Source of the DNA: a virus
Reading direction: 5' to 3' (one strand)
Virus record (IMG/VR): IMGVR_UViG_3300031382_000005
Coordinates: 1-46,032 of that record
DNA length: 46,032 nucleotides
This document shows positions 2,825-38,216 of this stretch, piece by piece. The notes beneath the pieces are model-generated. The model searched no databases, had not been told where the DNA came from, and saw nothing but the letters and a program-made list of their open reading frames with translations. A program made the translations under genes and the position numbers. Within the stretch, counting starts at the first letter, position 1. Every line of letters begins with the position of its first letter.

Positions 2825-5800
2825 TATCTTCTTCTTTCAGCAGTTGTGTTCTCAGAAAAAGCTGATGAAATTGTGCTGTTCGAATCAACTAGCTGACCAG
2901 CTACAATTTCTGGAGTTACCTCGTTTATTTTTTTCTCAGCTTCTTCTCCAGCTATAATCCTTATCTCATCTTTACTTATCTGTTCAACTTTAACATTCTG
3001 CCCTGTATAGTTATGAACAGAAACTTTCATTCCCCCAGAAGTCATGCTCGGCTTGTCGCTACTAGACCCAGAAGCGAAAGAAGGTAGAAGTCTGGATACA
3101 TCCATACCTGAGTTTATGGCTTTTAGCAATGGAAGATTTTTAGAGGTTGCATCAGCATTTACCACGAATTCTCTGTTAGATAGCCAAGCTGGTATTTTAT
3201 CTTCTTTCGGACCTCCTGGTCCTGTGATTAAACCACCTTCTGCAAATCCCCCAGCAGCAGCAAGACCAGTGCTAAGAGCTACGGTTGAAGCGATTGCAGC
3301 AGCGGCAGGAGCAGCGTTCGTTCCTAGAGTTGCTAGAGAAGCCAGAGCAGCGGCGGGTGCCCAAGCGGCGGCAGTTGTGGCGGCAGTCGCTACGGAAGCA
3401 GCCGTTGCTGCAACAGCGATTGACTGTCCAAGAGCTGCGTTCAGTAACCACTGGATTCCCATCTCCACTAACCCTGAGATCAACGAAGCCAGAGCGTTCT
3501 GGGCTACACTTTTCAAAGCCTGACCTAAGTTTTCTGAGAAAACGATAGCTTTACCAACACTATCAGCGAATCCTGTTGTGAGAGAACCAAAGAAGTCAGA
3601 GAACACTTCACCGCTAGAAGCAGCAAATGTTCTAACTCCTTCTGTCATTCGAGATATACCCAAGAGGAAACCGTCCGCGAACGAACCATCTCCTGATTGC
3701 GTCACAGTTTCTAAGATAGTTTGATTCAACGAAGCTAAAGAAACATTGAACGCATCTTGAGATATTCTTCCTGTGTCTAGTACAAGATACAAAGCTTCGA
3801 GACTGGTTGTGTAACTATCTAATGGACCTTTGATTTCTTCGTATATTGAGGCAGACTCTTTAGCTACTTCAAGACTTCTAAGAGTTGATACAGCCAAAAG
3901 ATTTTCTTGGTCAGTTAAATTTCTTTTCAGCTCTTCTTCTATTTTCAAGATACCCTGTAGAACTGTTCTCTCTTGTGCAGTTAATTTAAGAAGATCAATT
4001 TCTTTATTCATGTTAGCTAAAATAGAAGCAAAATTCTTATCAGAACCAGAACCAGAACCAGAACCAGTGTTATTTGGATTACTATTGTCTGGAGTTAACG
4101 TATCAATTTCTGTCTGTCGCATTAAAGCTTCCGCTTCTGCTGCGGCCATGTTTTCTCGTGCTCTATCTATGATTGCTTGATTTAGAGGTTGTAAAGCAGA
4201 AGAAACTGTTTCAGCAGCGGAATCAAAAGAAGTAGATTCCCAAGATTTAGTGAAACCTGCGGCGAAAGCTTCACCCGCTCCAACGCCTCCATCACCAAAA
4301 TTAGTTCTCAATCTATCGAGATTTATGTTTTCAAGAGAATCAATCTCACTCAACCCTAGTAAATCACCAGCGCCAGTATTCGCTAATAAATTAAAAGCAT
4401 CAATGATTTTTTGAATACCTGCGACACCAATATTCCCTACGGCTTCGAATCCCGTCACGAATATATCTACGACTGCGTCTAAAGCTGATCCTGCTCCTGG
4501 ACCTAACTGTAGGAAAACGTCGATGATTCCAGTAATGACAGCAACTACTAATCTAGGGATGAATGTAAAAGCGTCGTATGCTGCCTTAATTAAAGATTTC
4601 ATCGCTTCTACAAAAACCGTAGAAAGATCAGCAAAGAAACCTAGAACGTATCCCACTGCTCTACCAAAACCTTCTACAATAAGAGTCGTTACCGGAGAGA
4701 TGACCTCTTTCATAAGTTGAAGTGCGGAGACTACGTAATCTCTGAGACCGACCACATTATCCGCGGTGACCTTTATTTTGTTCGCTAGTAAAACGAACAA
4801 GCCTACTACCGCACCGATAGCAACAGCGATCAACCCGATAGGTCCAATGAAAGCGACCAGAGACCCAACAGAAGCAGCTAGGCGACCTATTACCCCTGCC
4901 ATAGTTGGAAATAGAGCTGTTAACCTTGCCGCCATAGCCCCCTGCGCCGCTTGTGCACCCGCTAAACGGGCGTTGGCCCCCGCTAGGGTGTTGGTGGCCC
5001 CTGTTTGTGCTGCCCTTGCTGTGGCAAGCCTCCCAGCAGTCGTGAGTTCAATGTTTTCTACAATAGAAAGTTTCTGTGTTACTCTAGCGAGATTGGTTTT
5101 AGCTACTTCTAGAGCAACGAATTTACCTGTTGCGATGTTACGAGCTCTCCCGTTAACCACCGTAAATTGAGTATCAAGAACTGTTAGTTTAAGATTAGAT
5201 CTTAGTACACCCAAGAGAGCTAGACGCTGAGAAAGTTCTACTTGTCTCTGGGCATTCTGAGCTACGACTAAGGCATTGTTACGAACTGATGATAAAGATC
5301 TGAGATTCTCTACTTCAAGCAGACGACCAGACGCAAGTGCGGCCCCTCTTAAGCTGAGAATATAGTTACTGATACCTGTGATAGCTTTACCTGTGAATAC
5401 AGCAGCGAGAGCCACAGTCAATGTTGCTACTGTACCAAGTATAAGACCTATATTATTTGATAAAACTATGATCGCCCGAGCGAGTTTTCCAGAAGCATTA
5501 GTTGAGTCATCGATACTATCTAGAAACTCTAGCCAGTTTGTATTGGCGATTGATAGTGCTTGGCTTATAGTTGGCATCGTGTTTGCGAAAAGTTGATCTA
5601 TTTCTGTTTCAGCTTCTCGGAACGCTTTGAGAATAGTCAGCGCTGAAATTTTACCTTCTTCACCAAGAATTCGTAATTCACCACGAGTTACACCAAGACT
5701 CTTAGATATAACGTCAGCGACAAATGGAAGTTGTTCAAGAACAGAACGAAGTTCGTCTCCCCGCAATGTGTTTGAGGCCATACCTTGTCCAAGCTGAACA

Positions 5801-6237
5801 AGAGCTGCATGAGCTTCTCGGGCTGATGCACCTGATATGATAGTTGCTTTACTAAGGCTTTCTGAAAACCTTATCGTTTCAGCTTGAGAGATACCAAGCT
5901 CTCGCACGGAGAGTGCTGTCCTGCTATAAATTTCAGCAACAGCTTCAAATCCAGTACGACTATCTCTAGCTGTTTGAAACAAACGACGCTGTATCGAGTC
6001 TAGATTTTTTGCACTAGATGATGTCAAACGAAGTCTGTTCTCGTATTCAGTTAGTGTATCAAGTTGACGTGTTAATCCACGAAGGATTCCCGCTCCACCC
6101 AAGACGAACAAAGCCCGTTGCATCAAGAAGATGCCGCGAGTAGCAGAGTTGGCTGCTACGCCTATTTCATCGATCCTGCGCTTGATTACTCTTGCGCCAG
6201 TTTCTCGAAATCTGATGTCTACATTCTCAGTAACCAT
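2824..6237 (-). CDS. Tail tape-measure protein
   Basis: 1137 residues; sets tail length and is ejected during infection. The N-terminal 300 residues match the phage tape-measure domain (TIGR02675 type), with signatures such as GASAREAHAALVQLGQG and TLRGDELRSVLEQLPF. Around residues 455-500 is a long hydrophobic, Gly/Ala-rich stretch that could span a membrane. The C-terminal part has the lambda-type pattern AEGGLITGPGGPKEDKIPAW followed by NREFVVNA. The start codon overlaps the previous stop (TAATG). At about 0.15 nm per residue the tail would be near 170 nm. Bases 4905-5040 are clearly more GC-rich than the rest of the gene and encode an Ala/Gly/Gln/Thr-rich stretch. Confidence 0.95.
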   Translation of the reverse strand: MVTENVDIRFRETGARVIKRRIDEIGVAANSATRGIFLMQRALFVLGGAGILRGLTRQLDTLTEYENRLRLTSSSAKNLDSIQRRLFQTARDSRTGFEAVAEIYSRTALSVRELGISQAETIRFSESLSKATIISGASAREAHAALVQLGQGMASNTLRGDELRSVLEQLPFVADVISKSLGVTRGELRILGEEGKISALTILKAFREAETEIDQLFANTMPTISQALSIANTNWLEFLDSIDDSTNASGKLARAIIVLSNNIGLILGTVATLTVALAAVFTGKAITGISNYILSLRGAALASGRLLEVENLRSLSSVRNNALVVAQNAQRQVELSQRLALLGVLRSNLKLTVLDTQFTVVNGRARNIATGKFVALEVAKTNLARVTQKLSIVENIELTTAGRLATARAAQTGATNTLAGANARLAGAQAAQGAMAARLTALFPTMAGVIGRLAASVGSLVAFIGPIGLIAVAIGAVVGLFVLLANKIKVTADNVVGLRDYVVSALQLMKEVISPVTTLIVEGFGRAVGYVLGFFADLSTVFVEAMKSLIKAAYDAFTFIPRLVVAVITGIIDVFLQLGPGAGSALDAVVDIFVTGFEAVGNIGVAGIQKIIDAFNLLANTGAGDLLGLSEIDSLENINLDRLRTNFGDGGVGAGEAFAAGFTKSWESTSFDSAAETVSSALQPLNQAIIDRARENMAAAEAEALMRQTEIDTLTPDNSNPNNTGSGSGSGSDKNFASILANMNKEIDLLKLTAQERTVLQGILKIEEELKRNLTDQENLLAVSTLRSLEVAKESASIYEEIKGPLDSYTTSLEALYLVLDTGRISQDAFNVSLASLNQTILETVTQSGDGSFADGFLLGISRMTEGVRTFAASSGEVFSDFFGSLTTGFADSVGKAIVFSENLGQALKSVAQNALASLISGLVEMGIQWLLNAALGQSIAVAATAASVATAATTAAAWAPAAALASLATLGTNAAPAAAAIASTVALSTGLAAAGGFAEGGLITGPGGPKEDKIPAWLSNREFVVNADATSKNLPLLKAINSGMDVSRLLPSFASGSSSDKPSMTSGGMKVSVHNYTGQNVKVEQISKDEIRIIAGEEAEKKINEVTPEIVAGQLVDSNSTISSAFSENTTAERRR

Positions 6238-35491: not shown

Positions 35492-35512
35492 GGTTAGTTA
35501 TTCACAAAAGTC

Positions 35513-35544
35513 GGGGCCGACCCAACTACCTATGGATCGACCCC
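35513..35544 (-). terminator. Terminator of the structured-RNA cassette
   Basis: GGGGTCG (35544-35538) pairs with CGGCCCC (35519-35513) over seven positions with one G-U pair, then GACTTTT follows. It ends the region downstream of the permuted tRNA. An alternative pairing of CCGACTT here with AAGTCGG at 35882-35888 could close the whole RNA. Confidence 0.55.
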
Positions 35545-35589
35545 TGTTGCTTTGATTAAAAATCAAGTGCTCAATAAAGAGCAGCACCT

Positions 35590-35787
35590 ATGACTCTCTG
35601 ACCACTGAGGTTCCGTCAATCTTACCAAATGCGCTCTACCACTGAGCTACCCGCCAGCAGTCCAACTAAAGGGTGTTGGATGGCGGGGCTGGATTCGAAC
35701 CAGCGACTTCATTGTTTAAGAAACCTCTTGTCTCCAGTCACTTTGTTTCTCACATTGAGGGGCATAAGTCTCTCAAATATGAGTCAC
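35590..35787 (-). ncRNA. Structured RNA with circularly permuted tRNA (Y-RNA/YrlA-like)
   Basis: In transcription order the tRNA 3' half comes first: variable AAGTC, T-arm GCTGG-TTCGAAT-CCAGC (35704-35688), acceptor CCCGCCA (35687-35681), then TCCA. After a 20-base linker able to form a TCCAAC/GTTGGA hairpin, the 5' half follows: acceptor TGGCGGG (35656-35650), T8, A9, D-arm GCTC-AGTGGTA-GAGC, G26, CATT. The acceptor halves pair 7/7 and CATT pairs with AATG (35713-35710) as the anticodon stem. The arm extends by long-range helices: TAAGA/TCTTA, AACCTC/GAGGTT (35607-35612 with 35722-35727), CAGT/ACTG and GAGTCAT/GTGACTC (35590-35596 with 35781-35787). Bacterial Y RNAs of the YrlA class have this permuted tRNA-mimic layout. 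No complete normal tRNA can be built. Confidence 0.65.
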
Positions 35788-35950
35788 GGGAATTTGTTTA
35801 CTCCTTAGAGTTTTTCCACCCGCATAGTTCAGTCTCAGTCTCAGTCTATCCCCTATGGGATCTATGGTGCATCAGGTCGAGCCGACTTGTCCCGATTCTT
35901 AGAGACAGTTACTTCCCCTCACGAGTGAGCTGATAGCCCGATGCAATAAG

Positions 35951-36694
35951 TTAGCCTTGGATATATCCGAAGATTTCCTTAGCAATGCTTAGATCTTTGA
36001 CGTCAACAGTGTTCGCTCGTTGGCGAGCCTTCTTGACAGCCGAGATCATTTTGTCACACCGAAGAATCATCGCCGATTTCTCGTGCGGTGTGATCATGCT
36101 TGAAGTGTGAGTTGTTTCAATACGAGCTACGGAAACGTCTTCGTTCCATTTCTCCACTTGGGCTGGATGCTCTTTCGTTGGCTCTACCAGGATTCGTGAT
36201 TTAAGAGACTTTTCAGTCTTCATAGACACAGTAGCTTCTGAACGATAAGTACCTTCACCAAGATTGGCGTCCGGTGTCCATTTGATAGACATTTCCAGAG
36301 TTGGAATGTTAAGGATCATTTCCCGAACAGCTTTGAGGCGGCTTTCCATGCCCAAAAGAAAGGTCGCTGGGACATCTTTGAGGATGGTGGTCCCATCTAC
36401 AATGAGGTCTGCTCGAGCACGTCCATTGGCCTCTTCAAGCTGCAACAGAGCATCATAATGGCGACCTATGCTTTTGAAAGCGTGATCAAGCTTGTCGGCG
36501 ACAGTAGTCACCATTTGCTTGTTTTCCACAGTGTTTTCACCTTCGCGGCTACTTTCAAAGAAATTCACTGTTTTGGACTGACCGCGAAAATGGTCAGGTT
36601 TTTTCGCAAACACAGTACTAGTCTCGGTAGTCACCGCTTGCGCTGCGTTGGTGGTGTCAGCCATTACCGCTAACAACTCATGAAGTTTCGCCAT
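35951..36694 (-). CDS. DUF7873-like conserved protein
   Basis: 247 residues, MAKLHELLAVMADTTNAAQA, then RADLIVDGTTILKDVPATFL with LGMESRLKAVREMI, KEHPAQVEKWNEDVSVA and KARQRANTVDVKDLSIAKE. This succession (start, 'A(R)ADLIVDGT.L..VP.T.L', 'HPAQVE', 'AR..AN...V') is that of a family of about 250 residues spread through bacteria and phages (DUF7873); its biochemistry is not known to me. ATG 36694 has GGAG. Its own promoter (site 10) lies upstream, and the permuted-tRNA RNA begins right after its stop, so both are probably one transcript. Confidence 0.7.
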   Translation of the reverse strand: MAKLHELLAVMADTTNAAQAVTTETSTVFAKKPDHFRGQSKTVNFFESSREGENTVENKQMVTTVADKLDHAFKSIGRHYDALLQLEEANGRARADLIVDGTTILKDVPATFLLGMESRLKAVREMILNIPTLEMSIKWTPDANLGEGTYRSEATVSMKTEKSLKSRILVEPTKEHPAQVEKWNEDVSVARIETTHTSSMITPHEKSAMILRCDKMISAVKKARQRANTVDVKDLSIAKEIFGYIQG

Positions 36695-36730
36695 TATTAC
36701 TATCTCCGTTATGTTTAATTCTTATAAGGT

Positions 36731-36759
36731 ATATTAACCTTACAAATTACCAATGACAA
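36731..36759 (-). promoter_or_regulatory. Promoter-family site 10
   Basis: -35 TTGTCA, 17-base spacer, -10 TAATAT; an AAGGT-ATATTA-ACCTT dyad covers the -10. Drives the DUF7873-like gene. Confidence 0.5.
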
Positions 36760-36760
36760 A

Positions 36761-37003: not shown

Positions 37004-37248
37004 GCGTCTACCGTAGCCTTTCTCATGACTTCAACACCTTCAGATAAAGCTTTTTTCGCCCATCTTTTTGCAAAGTATTTGTTATCTTCTGGTGGTCTAG
37101 GGCAGATTTCTACAATCCGATTATCTGATACTGAAACCACTAAACCTTGGAACGTACGAGTTTCTAAGGTATCTGAATATGTGCAATCTACTTTAATCCA
37201 ATCTCCTATTACTGGACAACTCTTATAGATCCAAAGTCCCCAACTCAT
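37000..37248 (-). CDS. Small protein of unknown function
   Basis: 82 residues, MSWGLWIYKSCPVIGDWIKV, strand-rich with a helical end. Coupled on both sides by ATGA overlaps, between the ligase and the 80-residue gene. Confidence 0.55.
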   Translation of the reverse strand: MSWGLWIYKSCPVIGDWIKVDCTYSDTLETRTFQGLVVSVSDNRIVEICPRPPEDNKYFAKRWAKKALSEGVEVMRKATVDA

Positions 37249-38192
37249 TTGAACATATCCAATTGCTCTGCATCCATATCAAGAGGGTCTCGGATCCCAA
37301 GGAACTGAGGAAAACGCGGCTTATCTTTCACACCAATCTTAAAGTATTTTATCTTTGCAATTTTACCGATCAGCTCATCCCGTTGATTCCAGTAACCTTG
37401 TCTGCTGTTTTGGGTAAGTCCTTCCCCACCGCCGACGTGACCATCAAAGTCACGCCCATCCCACAACTTTCCTGATATCTCGAAGCCGCCGAGAGTTCCT
37501 TTGCCGAGCAAGTTTTCTTTGTGTCCAGAGCGCTGAGTGTTCCCAAGAGCATTTTTCTTAGCTTCGTTGGTATTCTCATTCTCTTCATAAAAGCCTGTAA
37601 TAAGAACTTCTGTATCTATCCAGCCTCCTTCTTTCATTTTGATGCACTCACATTGCACTGGAGAACCTCGGCCAAATTTATAGTAGGAGTCAGGTCGACG
37701 CAGAATAATCCCCTCATGCCCAAGAAGGGTCTGCTCTTCGTAGAATTCCCACACCTGCTCCATGGTATGAAACAGAGTTGTCTCAGCAGGTAAAACTTTG
37801 ACTTGTCCAACCCATAAATAGTCACAGATTTCTTCAACAACTTTCATTCTTTCTTCAAAAGTTCCTGGTTCATCCCATTTATCAAACACATAGAACCGCA
37901 TGTCTTCATGAGGTTTGTTAAACGACATGACAGCAGAGTCTGTACGAGAATAGCATCCTGAAGCATATGGATCACCACAGATGATCTCACCATCTAAGCC
38001 TCGTAGTATATCTTTGTTATAAGCAAAGAAAGATTGAAGCTGCTCTGATCTGGCAGCTTTTAACGATCGAGTAGAAGCAACGCCAGAGTGGTTCTCAAAA
38101 ATACGAATTCCATCGTATTTGATTTGTCCATAAAGAGGAAGCTGTTTTGCAACTTTCTCTTCAAAGAATTTTCCTGCTAATAGTGGTTTCAT
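37245..38192 (-). CDS. ATP-dependent DNA ligase
   Basis: 315 residues from ATG 38192 (GGAGG-CTACC leader; an in-frame TTG at 38204 is inside the leader). Nucleotidyltransferase motif I is IKYDGIR with Lys25 as the adenylated residue, followed by GLDGEIICGD (motif III region), and HEGIILRRPDSYYKFG (motif IV). A C-terminal OB-type part follows (GTLGGFEISGKLWDGRDFD). Seals nicks in phage replication. Behind promoter site 11. Length is typical of small phage ligases. Confidence 0.88.
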   Translation of the reverse strand: MKPLLAGKFFEEKVAKQLPLYGQIKYDGIRIFENHSGVASTRSLKAARSEQLQSFFAYNKDILRGLDGEIICGDPYASGCYSRTDSAVMSFNKPHEDMRFYVFDKWDEPGTFEERMKVVEEICDYLWVGQVKVLPAETTLFHTMEQVWEFYEEQTLLGHEGIILRRPDSYYKFGRGSPVQCECIKMKEGGWIDTEVLITGFYEENENTNEAKKNALGNTQRSGHKENLLGKGTLGGFEISGKLWDGRDFDGHVGGGEGLTQNSRQGYWNQRDELIGKIAKIKYFKIGVKDKPRFPQFLGIRDPLDMDAEQLDMFK

Positions 38193-38216
38193 GGTAGCCT
38201 CCAATAATTGAACTTT

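Follow-up and report, generated by a model that had tools for sequence, protein, structure and literature searches.

A DUF7873 protein gene and a permuted tRNA-like RNA form a linked cassette in phages and in Streptomyces/Nonomuraea replicons

A 46,032-nucleotide (nt) stretch of viral DNA, the 46-kb IMG/VR virus record IMGVR_UViG_3300031382_000005 (the window), carries on its minus strand a cassette in which a gene for a protein of the DUF7873 family is followed by a permuted transfer RNA (tRNA), its 3′ half placed before its 5′ half, and by a terminator. The cassette probably encodes a ribonucleoprotein, made of the DUF7873 protein and a structured tRNA-mimic RNA of ~360 nt that would act toward the host tRNA machinery; this reading is given a probability of roughly 60%. 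The permuted tRNA had been proposed earlier by a reading made from the letters of the window (the sequence-only reading) and was confirmed: a fully paired acceptor stem (7/7), T8-A9, a D-arm, a T-arm and an encoded CCA were all located on the minus strand (Table 1).

Linkage between protein and RNA was examined across genomes. An alignment-based search of IMG/VR yielded 362 relatives of DUF7873, and 80 loci were retained from it. A separate addition were named phages of Rhizobium, Vibrio, Klebsiella, Rhodococcus, Gordonia, Arthrobacter and Pseudanabaena. Individual loci are denoted by L numbers. A strict detector, which required a T-arm, a 7/7 acceptor, CCA and a D-arm in permuted order at most 800 nt downstream of DUF7873, found a permuted tRNA in 57 of 77 distinct loci. 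The same detector gave no hit in dinucleotide shuffles (0/1540), other windows of the same loci (0/365) or reverse strands (0/77), and the results for shuffles and control windows exclude chance as the source of the permuted-tRNA structure. Under relaxed rules, a permuted tRNA was present just downstream in 72/77 loci. The linkage spans phages of all genera listed above as well as Streptomyces and Nonomuraea replicons, at ~30% protein identity. A single-protein scan of genome contigs with DUF7873 matched one metagenome-assembled genome. At L102 (Microcoleus phage), a frame downstream of DUF7873 starts, by eye, like an IscB nuclease, and the permuted tRNA is unclear there.

The converse test used a DNA pattern blind to the protein, which returned ten 7/7 permuted tRNAs in viral contigs. 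DUF7873 was located 158-254 nt upstream of six of these, another, L134, shares a contig with L089, a known DUF7873 carrier, and L122 lies in a Ro60 phage. As genetic linkage, the partnership with DUF7873 considered by the sequence-only reading is therefore upheld from both sides, with at least six of the ten permuted tRNAs standing beside the gene.

Structural conservation was analyzed in 60 non-redundant loci with 51 different acceptor strands, among which the acceptor, T and anticodon stems covary freely. Cognate halves formed 6.98 of 7 acceptor pairs versus 3.74 for swapped halves, a figure partly fixed by the detector; for the anticodon stem, which depends much less on the detector, the values were 4.45 of 5 versus 2.14. 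The duplex between the leader (55 nt, ahead of the 3′ half) and the trailer (50 nt, behind the 5′ half) reached −22.7 kcal/mol for cognate and −14.5 kcal/mol for swapped strands (0/10,000 permutations). The sequence-only reading had described several nested helices here. In the seven closest sequences, that at 35722-35727/35607-35612 had 6 of 7 counted pairs changed on both sides and is retained, while the outer one at 35781-35787/35590-35596 had 0/7 pairs changed on both sides, with 73.5% of cells paired, and is not conserved. Compensatory changes in relatives were thus found in the acceptor, T and anticodon stems and in the extended helix. The minimum free energy of the whole 451-nt region was 3.6 standard deviations below that of shuffles.

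Further domains surround the permuted module. Family-wide, an upstream helix (e.g., GGGUCA/UGACCC or GGACUCA/UGAGUCC) precedes hexamer repeats, AGCUUC or AGACUG among them, and the two strands of this 5′ domain paired better as cognates than when swapped (0/10,000 permutations). L005 and L037 hinted at a clear H-type pseudoknot in the 5′ domain, which was not shown for the window. In 26/60 loci, the permuted 5′ half is followed, at a distance of 48-68 nt, by the start of a normally ordered second tRNA body, ~130-fold above background density, with many different anticodons and with CCA in 3/26. In the window, this second tRNA is decayed: D- and anticodon arms remain, and covary among relatives, and the T-arm and acceptor are lost; the close relative L017 has it intact. 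A second permuted tRNA replaces the ordinary one in actinophages, cyanophages, Klebsiella jumbo phages and the Streptomyces/Nonomuraea replicons. In Klebsiella phage FBKp24 (L009), an annotated tRNA-Sup-TTA overlaps this second permuted tRNA; the annotation is probably erroneous. The RNA ends in a terminal hairpin, the loop of which is often like GCAGGCUAG in the family. The Y-RNA-like RNA of the sequence-only reading is therefore borne out for the tRNA-mimic module, which is YrlA-like; the RNA as a whole is larger and more complex than a Y RNA, with a hexamer-bearing 5′ helix, CCA, a second tRNA body and a terminal hairpin.

CCA is encoded in 55/60 non-redundant relatives. Ordinary tRNA genes carry it in 0/8 cases in Mimi, 0/10 in NiceHouse and 2/16 in GodonK, and the first permuted copy in these actinophages has ACCA. 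Since the ordinary tRNAs of these actinophages are mostly without CCA, it appears to be kept for this RNA itself. The linker between CCA and the 5′ half varies from 1 to 76 nt across relatives. Its last bases, ahead of the 5′ acceptor strand, follow a conserved U-R-N pattern, and where the linker is long they are often UGG, which could pair with CCA. RNase P and tRNA 3′ nucleases recognize tRNA-like acceptor and CCA features. For two-piece transfer-messenger RNA (tmRNA), the precursors are believed to be cleaved by RNase P and tRNase Z (PMC3985003). From these features and this precedent we infer that the linker is probably removed, giving a two-piece mature RNA. Pairing between leader and RCCA is reported to hinder RNase P (PMC9433436), and given the potential for UGG/CCA pairing, processing may vary among members.

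The DUF7873 gene of the window matches PF25283 with 243 bits (gathering score 27, E 4.7e-72). An AlphaFold2 model showed a mixed helix-strand protein (predicted local distance difference test score 88.9, predicted template modeling score 0.62). Foldseek against PDB and BFVD, together with sequence and profile searches against solved structures, gave no significant match; PADLOC gave no defence-family match and NCBIfam nothing useful. The basic residues K206, K221 and R224, together with A227 and N228, are invariant in 63 sequences and would fit an RNA-binding helix.

Taken as a ribonucleoprotein, the cassette would probably work as follows. The ~360-nt RNA would be made from the 3′ part of the DUF7873 gene transcript, both being transcribed together, after which the RNA would fold. 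The tRNA-mimic has a tRNA-like acceptor stem, N73-CCA, a T-arm and a D-arm, and its anticodon side is prolonged into a long helix; many relatives carry, at a fixed distance behind it, a second tRNA body that usually lacks CCA. Host tRNA-processing enzymes would recognize elbow and acceptor, RNase P acting at the 5′ side and a tRNA 3′ nuclease at the CCA side, and excision of the linker would turn the RNA into two pieces and set its CCA end free, as in permuted tmRNA. DUF7873 would bind the 5′ hexamer-repeat domain, and the particle may engage one or more tRNA-recognizing host factors, redirecting or occupying them during infection. Its action on the host tRNA machinery could be to recruit, to occupy or to protect, and all three are kept as options.

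Several observations weigh against a ribonucleoprotein of this kind. The isoelectric point of the whole DUF7873 protein is near neutral (median 6.8); together with the lack of a known fold match, this means that RNA binding by DUF7873 is argued from the linkage and the conserved basic stretch. Pairing between the 5′ and 3′ strands of the 5′ domain is clear in aggregate only. CCA may be maintained for folding or for pairing, the frequent UGG of long-linker members being a potential partner. Finally, 5/77 DUF7873 loci are without a permuted tRNA by the rules applied, although two of these (L037 and L048) appear to have one by eye.

A decoy or counter-defence role, in which the RNA would sequester a host enzyme or toxin directed at the tRNA elbow or the CCA end, is considered unlikely. 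Several DUF7873 records are phages with tRNA arrays, and a competitive-inhibitor role has been suggested for YrlA (PMC7790460), both of which would suit such a role. The PADLOC result speaks against it, as does the presence of the cassette on Streptomyces and Nonomuraea replicons; moreover, being a decoy may be what the particle is for and does not make it another kind of object.

The RNA could also be an ordinary YrlA-class Y RNA, its Ro60 protein being host-supplied or lost and DUF7873 a mere neighbour. Following a permissive cmscan, YrlA (RF02553) matched at 35724-35607 with 43.1 bits (E 2.6e-8), below the Rfam gathering score of 69; it was the only Rfam family above noise for the module in the window, where no Rfam family matched at gathering score. 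Of the covariance searches suggested by the sequence-only reading, that for YrlA thus gave a sub-threshold match and that for group I introns none; ARAGORN found no tRNA. Permuted modules at eight Ro60 loci from named phages, used as controls, scored no better with the YrlA model (28.9-43.1 bits). As these Ro60-linked RNAs also stay below 69 bits, missing the RF02553 cut-off does not by itself exclude a Y RNA.

Ro60 (TROVE domain) was searched in the whole records of 42 DUF7873 loci, including that of the window, and of 14 more, Nonomuraea being left out. In agreement with the sequence-only reading, which had seen no Ro60 gene, it was absent from the window's record, which is possibly incomplete, and from 51/55 other DUF7873 records, including 10/11 named phages. 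TROVE occurs together with DUF7873 in the records of L033, L034 and L007, and a weak match in L044 was counted as present. Conversely, DUF7873 was found within ~3-4 kb of 0/8 Ro60 loci. The Ro60-side modules are mostly closed by UUCG, GAAA, CUCG or similar short loops and carry CCA in 2/10 cases, and the YrlA model does not cover the 5′ hexamer domain, the second tRNA body or the terminal hairpin. An ordinary Y RNA is therefore distinctly unlikely, and the module is filed as YrlA-like in structure and not a Y RNA. In Nonomuraea gerenzanensis (L093), DUF7873 and its two permuted tRNAs are preceded, ~2.5 kb upstream, by a Ro60 gene that has YrlA-like RNAs, and the control genome of Deinobacterium chartae holds both families. 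With both present in some genomes, and ~2.5 kb apart in Nonomuraea, a functional relation between them is possible.

Other arrangements of permuted modules were observed. The TROVE search also took in L122, L177 and L178, which are not DUF7873 records. L177 and L178, the last two of the ten permuted tRNAs returned by the DNA pattern, bear CCA; in their viral contigs (144 and 283 kb), DUF7873 was not found nearby and TROVE was absent from the record. In the Ro60 phage contig L122/L233, apparently three permuted tRNA modules, two of them UUCG-closed, stand in a row upstream of Ro60. In Gordonia phage GMA2 (L236), a Ro60 gene is followed within ~1 kb by a tmRNA, a YrlA-like RNA and a Pistol ribozyme, heading a tRNA array. 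At L061, ~1.5 kb separate the permuted tRNA from a phage-encoded tmRNA (5505-5895, 114 bits) downstream of it.

A phage version of permuted, two-piece tmRNA that uses DUF7873 as its SmpB is very unlikely. It would account for the permuted order, the CCA, the missing anticodon and the structured 5′ region, and for weak beta_tmRNA matches (17-35 bits) on the module in relatives, and the processing precedent cited above suits it as well. None of the tmRNA models RF00023, RF04321 and RF01850 reached cut-off on the module, however, the alanine determinant G3:U70 occurs in 1/60 relatives (G3-C70 in the window), no tag reading frame was seen by eye in the trailer, and DUF7873 is without a fold match.

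End-joining of a permuted tRNA requires a bulge-helix-bulge endonuclease, an enzyme that bacteria are not known to have. A real circularly permuted tRNA gene, whose ends would have to be cleaved and ligated within the anticodon loop before the tRNA could function, is extremely improbable: permuted tRNA genes of algae and archaea share the gene order, a 7/7 acceptor, CCA and the short linker (PMC3978253) and TTGGTAA after the 5′ anticodon strand of the window looks like an anticodon loop, but this position differs even in the closest relatives (GTTATCA in L014, GTAATAA in L018), the long covarying leader/trailer helix replaces the loop where joining would need it, and no group I intron model matched the window or relatives in gathering-level or permissive Rfam scans. 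The alternative left by the sequence-only reading, a truly permuted gene with RNA end-joining, is accordingly not supported. That ARAGORN called no tRNA in the window region is expected for a permuted tRNA.

Table 1. Positions of the cassette features in the window
Feature	Position	Strand	Basis
Promoter-like site TTGTCA-17-TAATAT, 5′ of the DUF7873 gene	36731..36759	-	Consensus scan only
DUF7873 protein gene, 247 amino acids, constant neighbour of the RNA	35951..36694	-	Pfam PF25283
Inserted ~76-nt structured element, outside the conserved RNA	35869..35944	-	Comparison with relatives
5′ domain, 5′ strand: AGGGGAUA, then AGACUG hexamer repeats	35828..35854	-	Strict conservation in close relatives
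5′ domain, 3′ strand: UAUGCCCCU, candidate partner of AGGGGAUA	35758..35766	-	Sequence; family-level pairing
Extended anticodon-side helix	5′ strand 35720..35728, 3′ strand 35607..35614	-	Double-sided pair changes
Permuted tRNA 3′ half: anticodon-stem 3′ strand (35714-35709), variable region, T-arm, acceptor 3′ strand	35681..35714	-	
T-arm; acceptor 3′ strand CCCGCCA	35704-35688; 35687-35681	-	
Encoded U73-CCA	35677..35680	-	
Linker, CCA to 5′ half	35657..35676	-	Putatively removed in maturation
Permuted tRNA 5′ half: acceptor 5′ strand, U8-A9, D-arm, anticodon-stem 5′ strand (35631-35627)	35627..35656	-	
Acceptor 5′ strand TGGCGGG (7/7 pairs); T8-A9; D-arm	35656-35650; 35649-35648; 35647-35633	-	
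Remnant of second, normally ordered tRNA: D-arm (35583-35568); anticodon arm (35566-35552), loop UUUUUAA	35552..35583	-	
Terminal hairpin (35544-35513), loop AUAGGUAG, then UUUU; intrinsic terminator	35506..35544	-	Stem covaries

The promoter and terminator claimed by the sequence-only reading were both located, the former by consensus scan and the latter as a hairpin 0.4 kb behind the DUF7873 gene. Seven promoter-like sites were found in the region versus 3.3 expected, a consensus scan that proves nothing by itself. With the next promoter-like site at 35491-35463, the unit looks self-contained, subject to the same limit on consensus matches. Upstream of DUF7873, an ATP-dependent DNA ligase-like gene (37245-38204, minus strand) gave a sub-threshold RNA_ligase match. 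The ~76-nt element, compared in the window, L002, L003, L004 and L231, shares 86-90% identity with DSS3phi2, EE36phi1 and Mallos DNA and has no Rfam match. N4-like Roseobacter phages carry it, as do Xanthomonas phage Mallos and one further viral contig, with a conserved core and an outer stem differing per genome. As it is missing from the closest relative (L013), it was apparently inserted; the first 68 nt after the gene were therefore rejected as part of the RNA.

No description of the DUF7873-RNA pair was found in Rfam or in the literature searched, in which Y RNAs were covered through citing papers. An undescribed phage RNA-protein module, conditionally suggested by the sequence-only reading, is consistent with these searches and with the linkage, from which the protein-RNA partnership itself is deduced. 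Permuted tRNA-mimics were previously known in Y RNAs and, in relaxed form, in two-piece tmRNA. Since the same module stands beside an unrelated protein family in dozens of phages, it is a reusable building block of which Ro60 is not the only partner. DUF7873, a family of unknown function, gains a concrete RNA to test, and natural variants, which differ in the number of permuted copies (one or two), in the presence of CCA and in whether the second tRNA is intact or decayed, help to ask which host factor the mimic addresses. The module also explains some odd phage tRNA annotations, such as the tRNA-Sup-TTA mentioned above. At a little under even odds, we tentatively propose a new class of ribonucleoprotein, distributed over phages of proteobacteria, actinobacteria and cyanobacteria and the Streptomyces/Nonomuraea replicons. 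Its permuted, CCA-ended, possibly aminoacylated mimic, with a second tRNA at fixed spacing, would act on the host translation or tRNA-processing machinery in a function unrelated to Ro60 and Y RNA.

Among known systems, YrlA with its partner Ro60/Rsr shares the permuted order, the contiguous T-arm, acceptor and D-arm, and the anticodon side continued by a flanking helix. The RNA described here differs in having a DUF7873 gene instead of a Ro60 gene, CCA and a linker instead of a closing tetraloop, and an extra 5′ hexamer domain, a second tRNA body and a conserved terminal hairpin. Two-piece tmRNA with SmpB (RF04321, RF01850) likewise has a CCA-bearing 3′ half upstream, a removable linker (putatively so here), no anticodon and a dedicated protein; in the present RNA, by contrast, no tag frame was seen by eye, G3:U70 occurs in 1/60 relatives, no tmRNA model matches above cut-off, and by fold search the protein is unrelated. 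The permuted tRNA genes known from red and green algae and from Thermofilum agree in the order of halves, the short intervening sequence and a sometimes encoded CCA, whereas here a covarying helix occupies the would-be splice junction in place of a conserved anticodon loop. GOLLD and ROOL, ornate phage RNAs, are also large, structured and often near tRNA genes, and tRNAs sometimes lie inside GOLLD (PMC12286853); the present RNA matches neither in Rfam, and its class is defined by a linked protein gene and a permuted tRNA.
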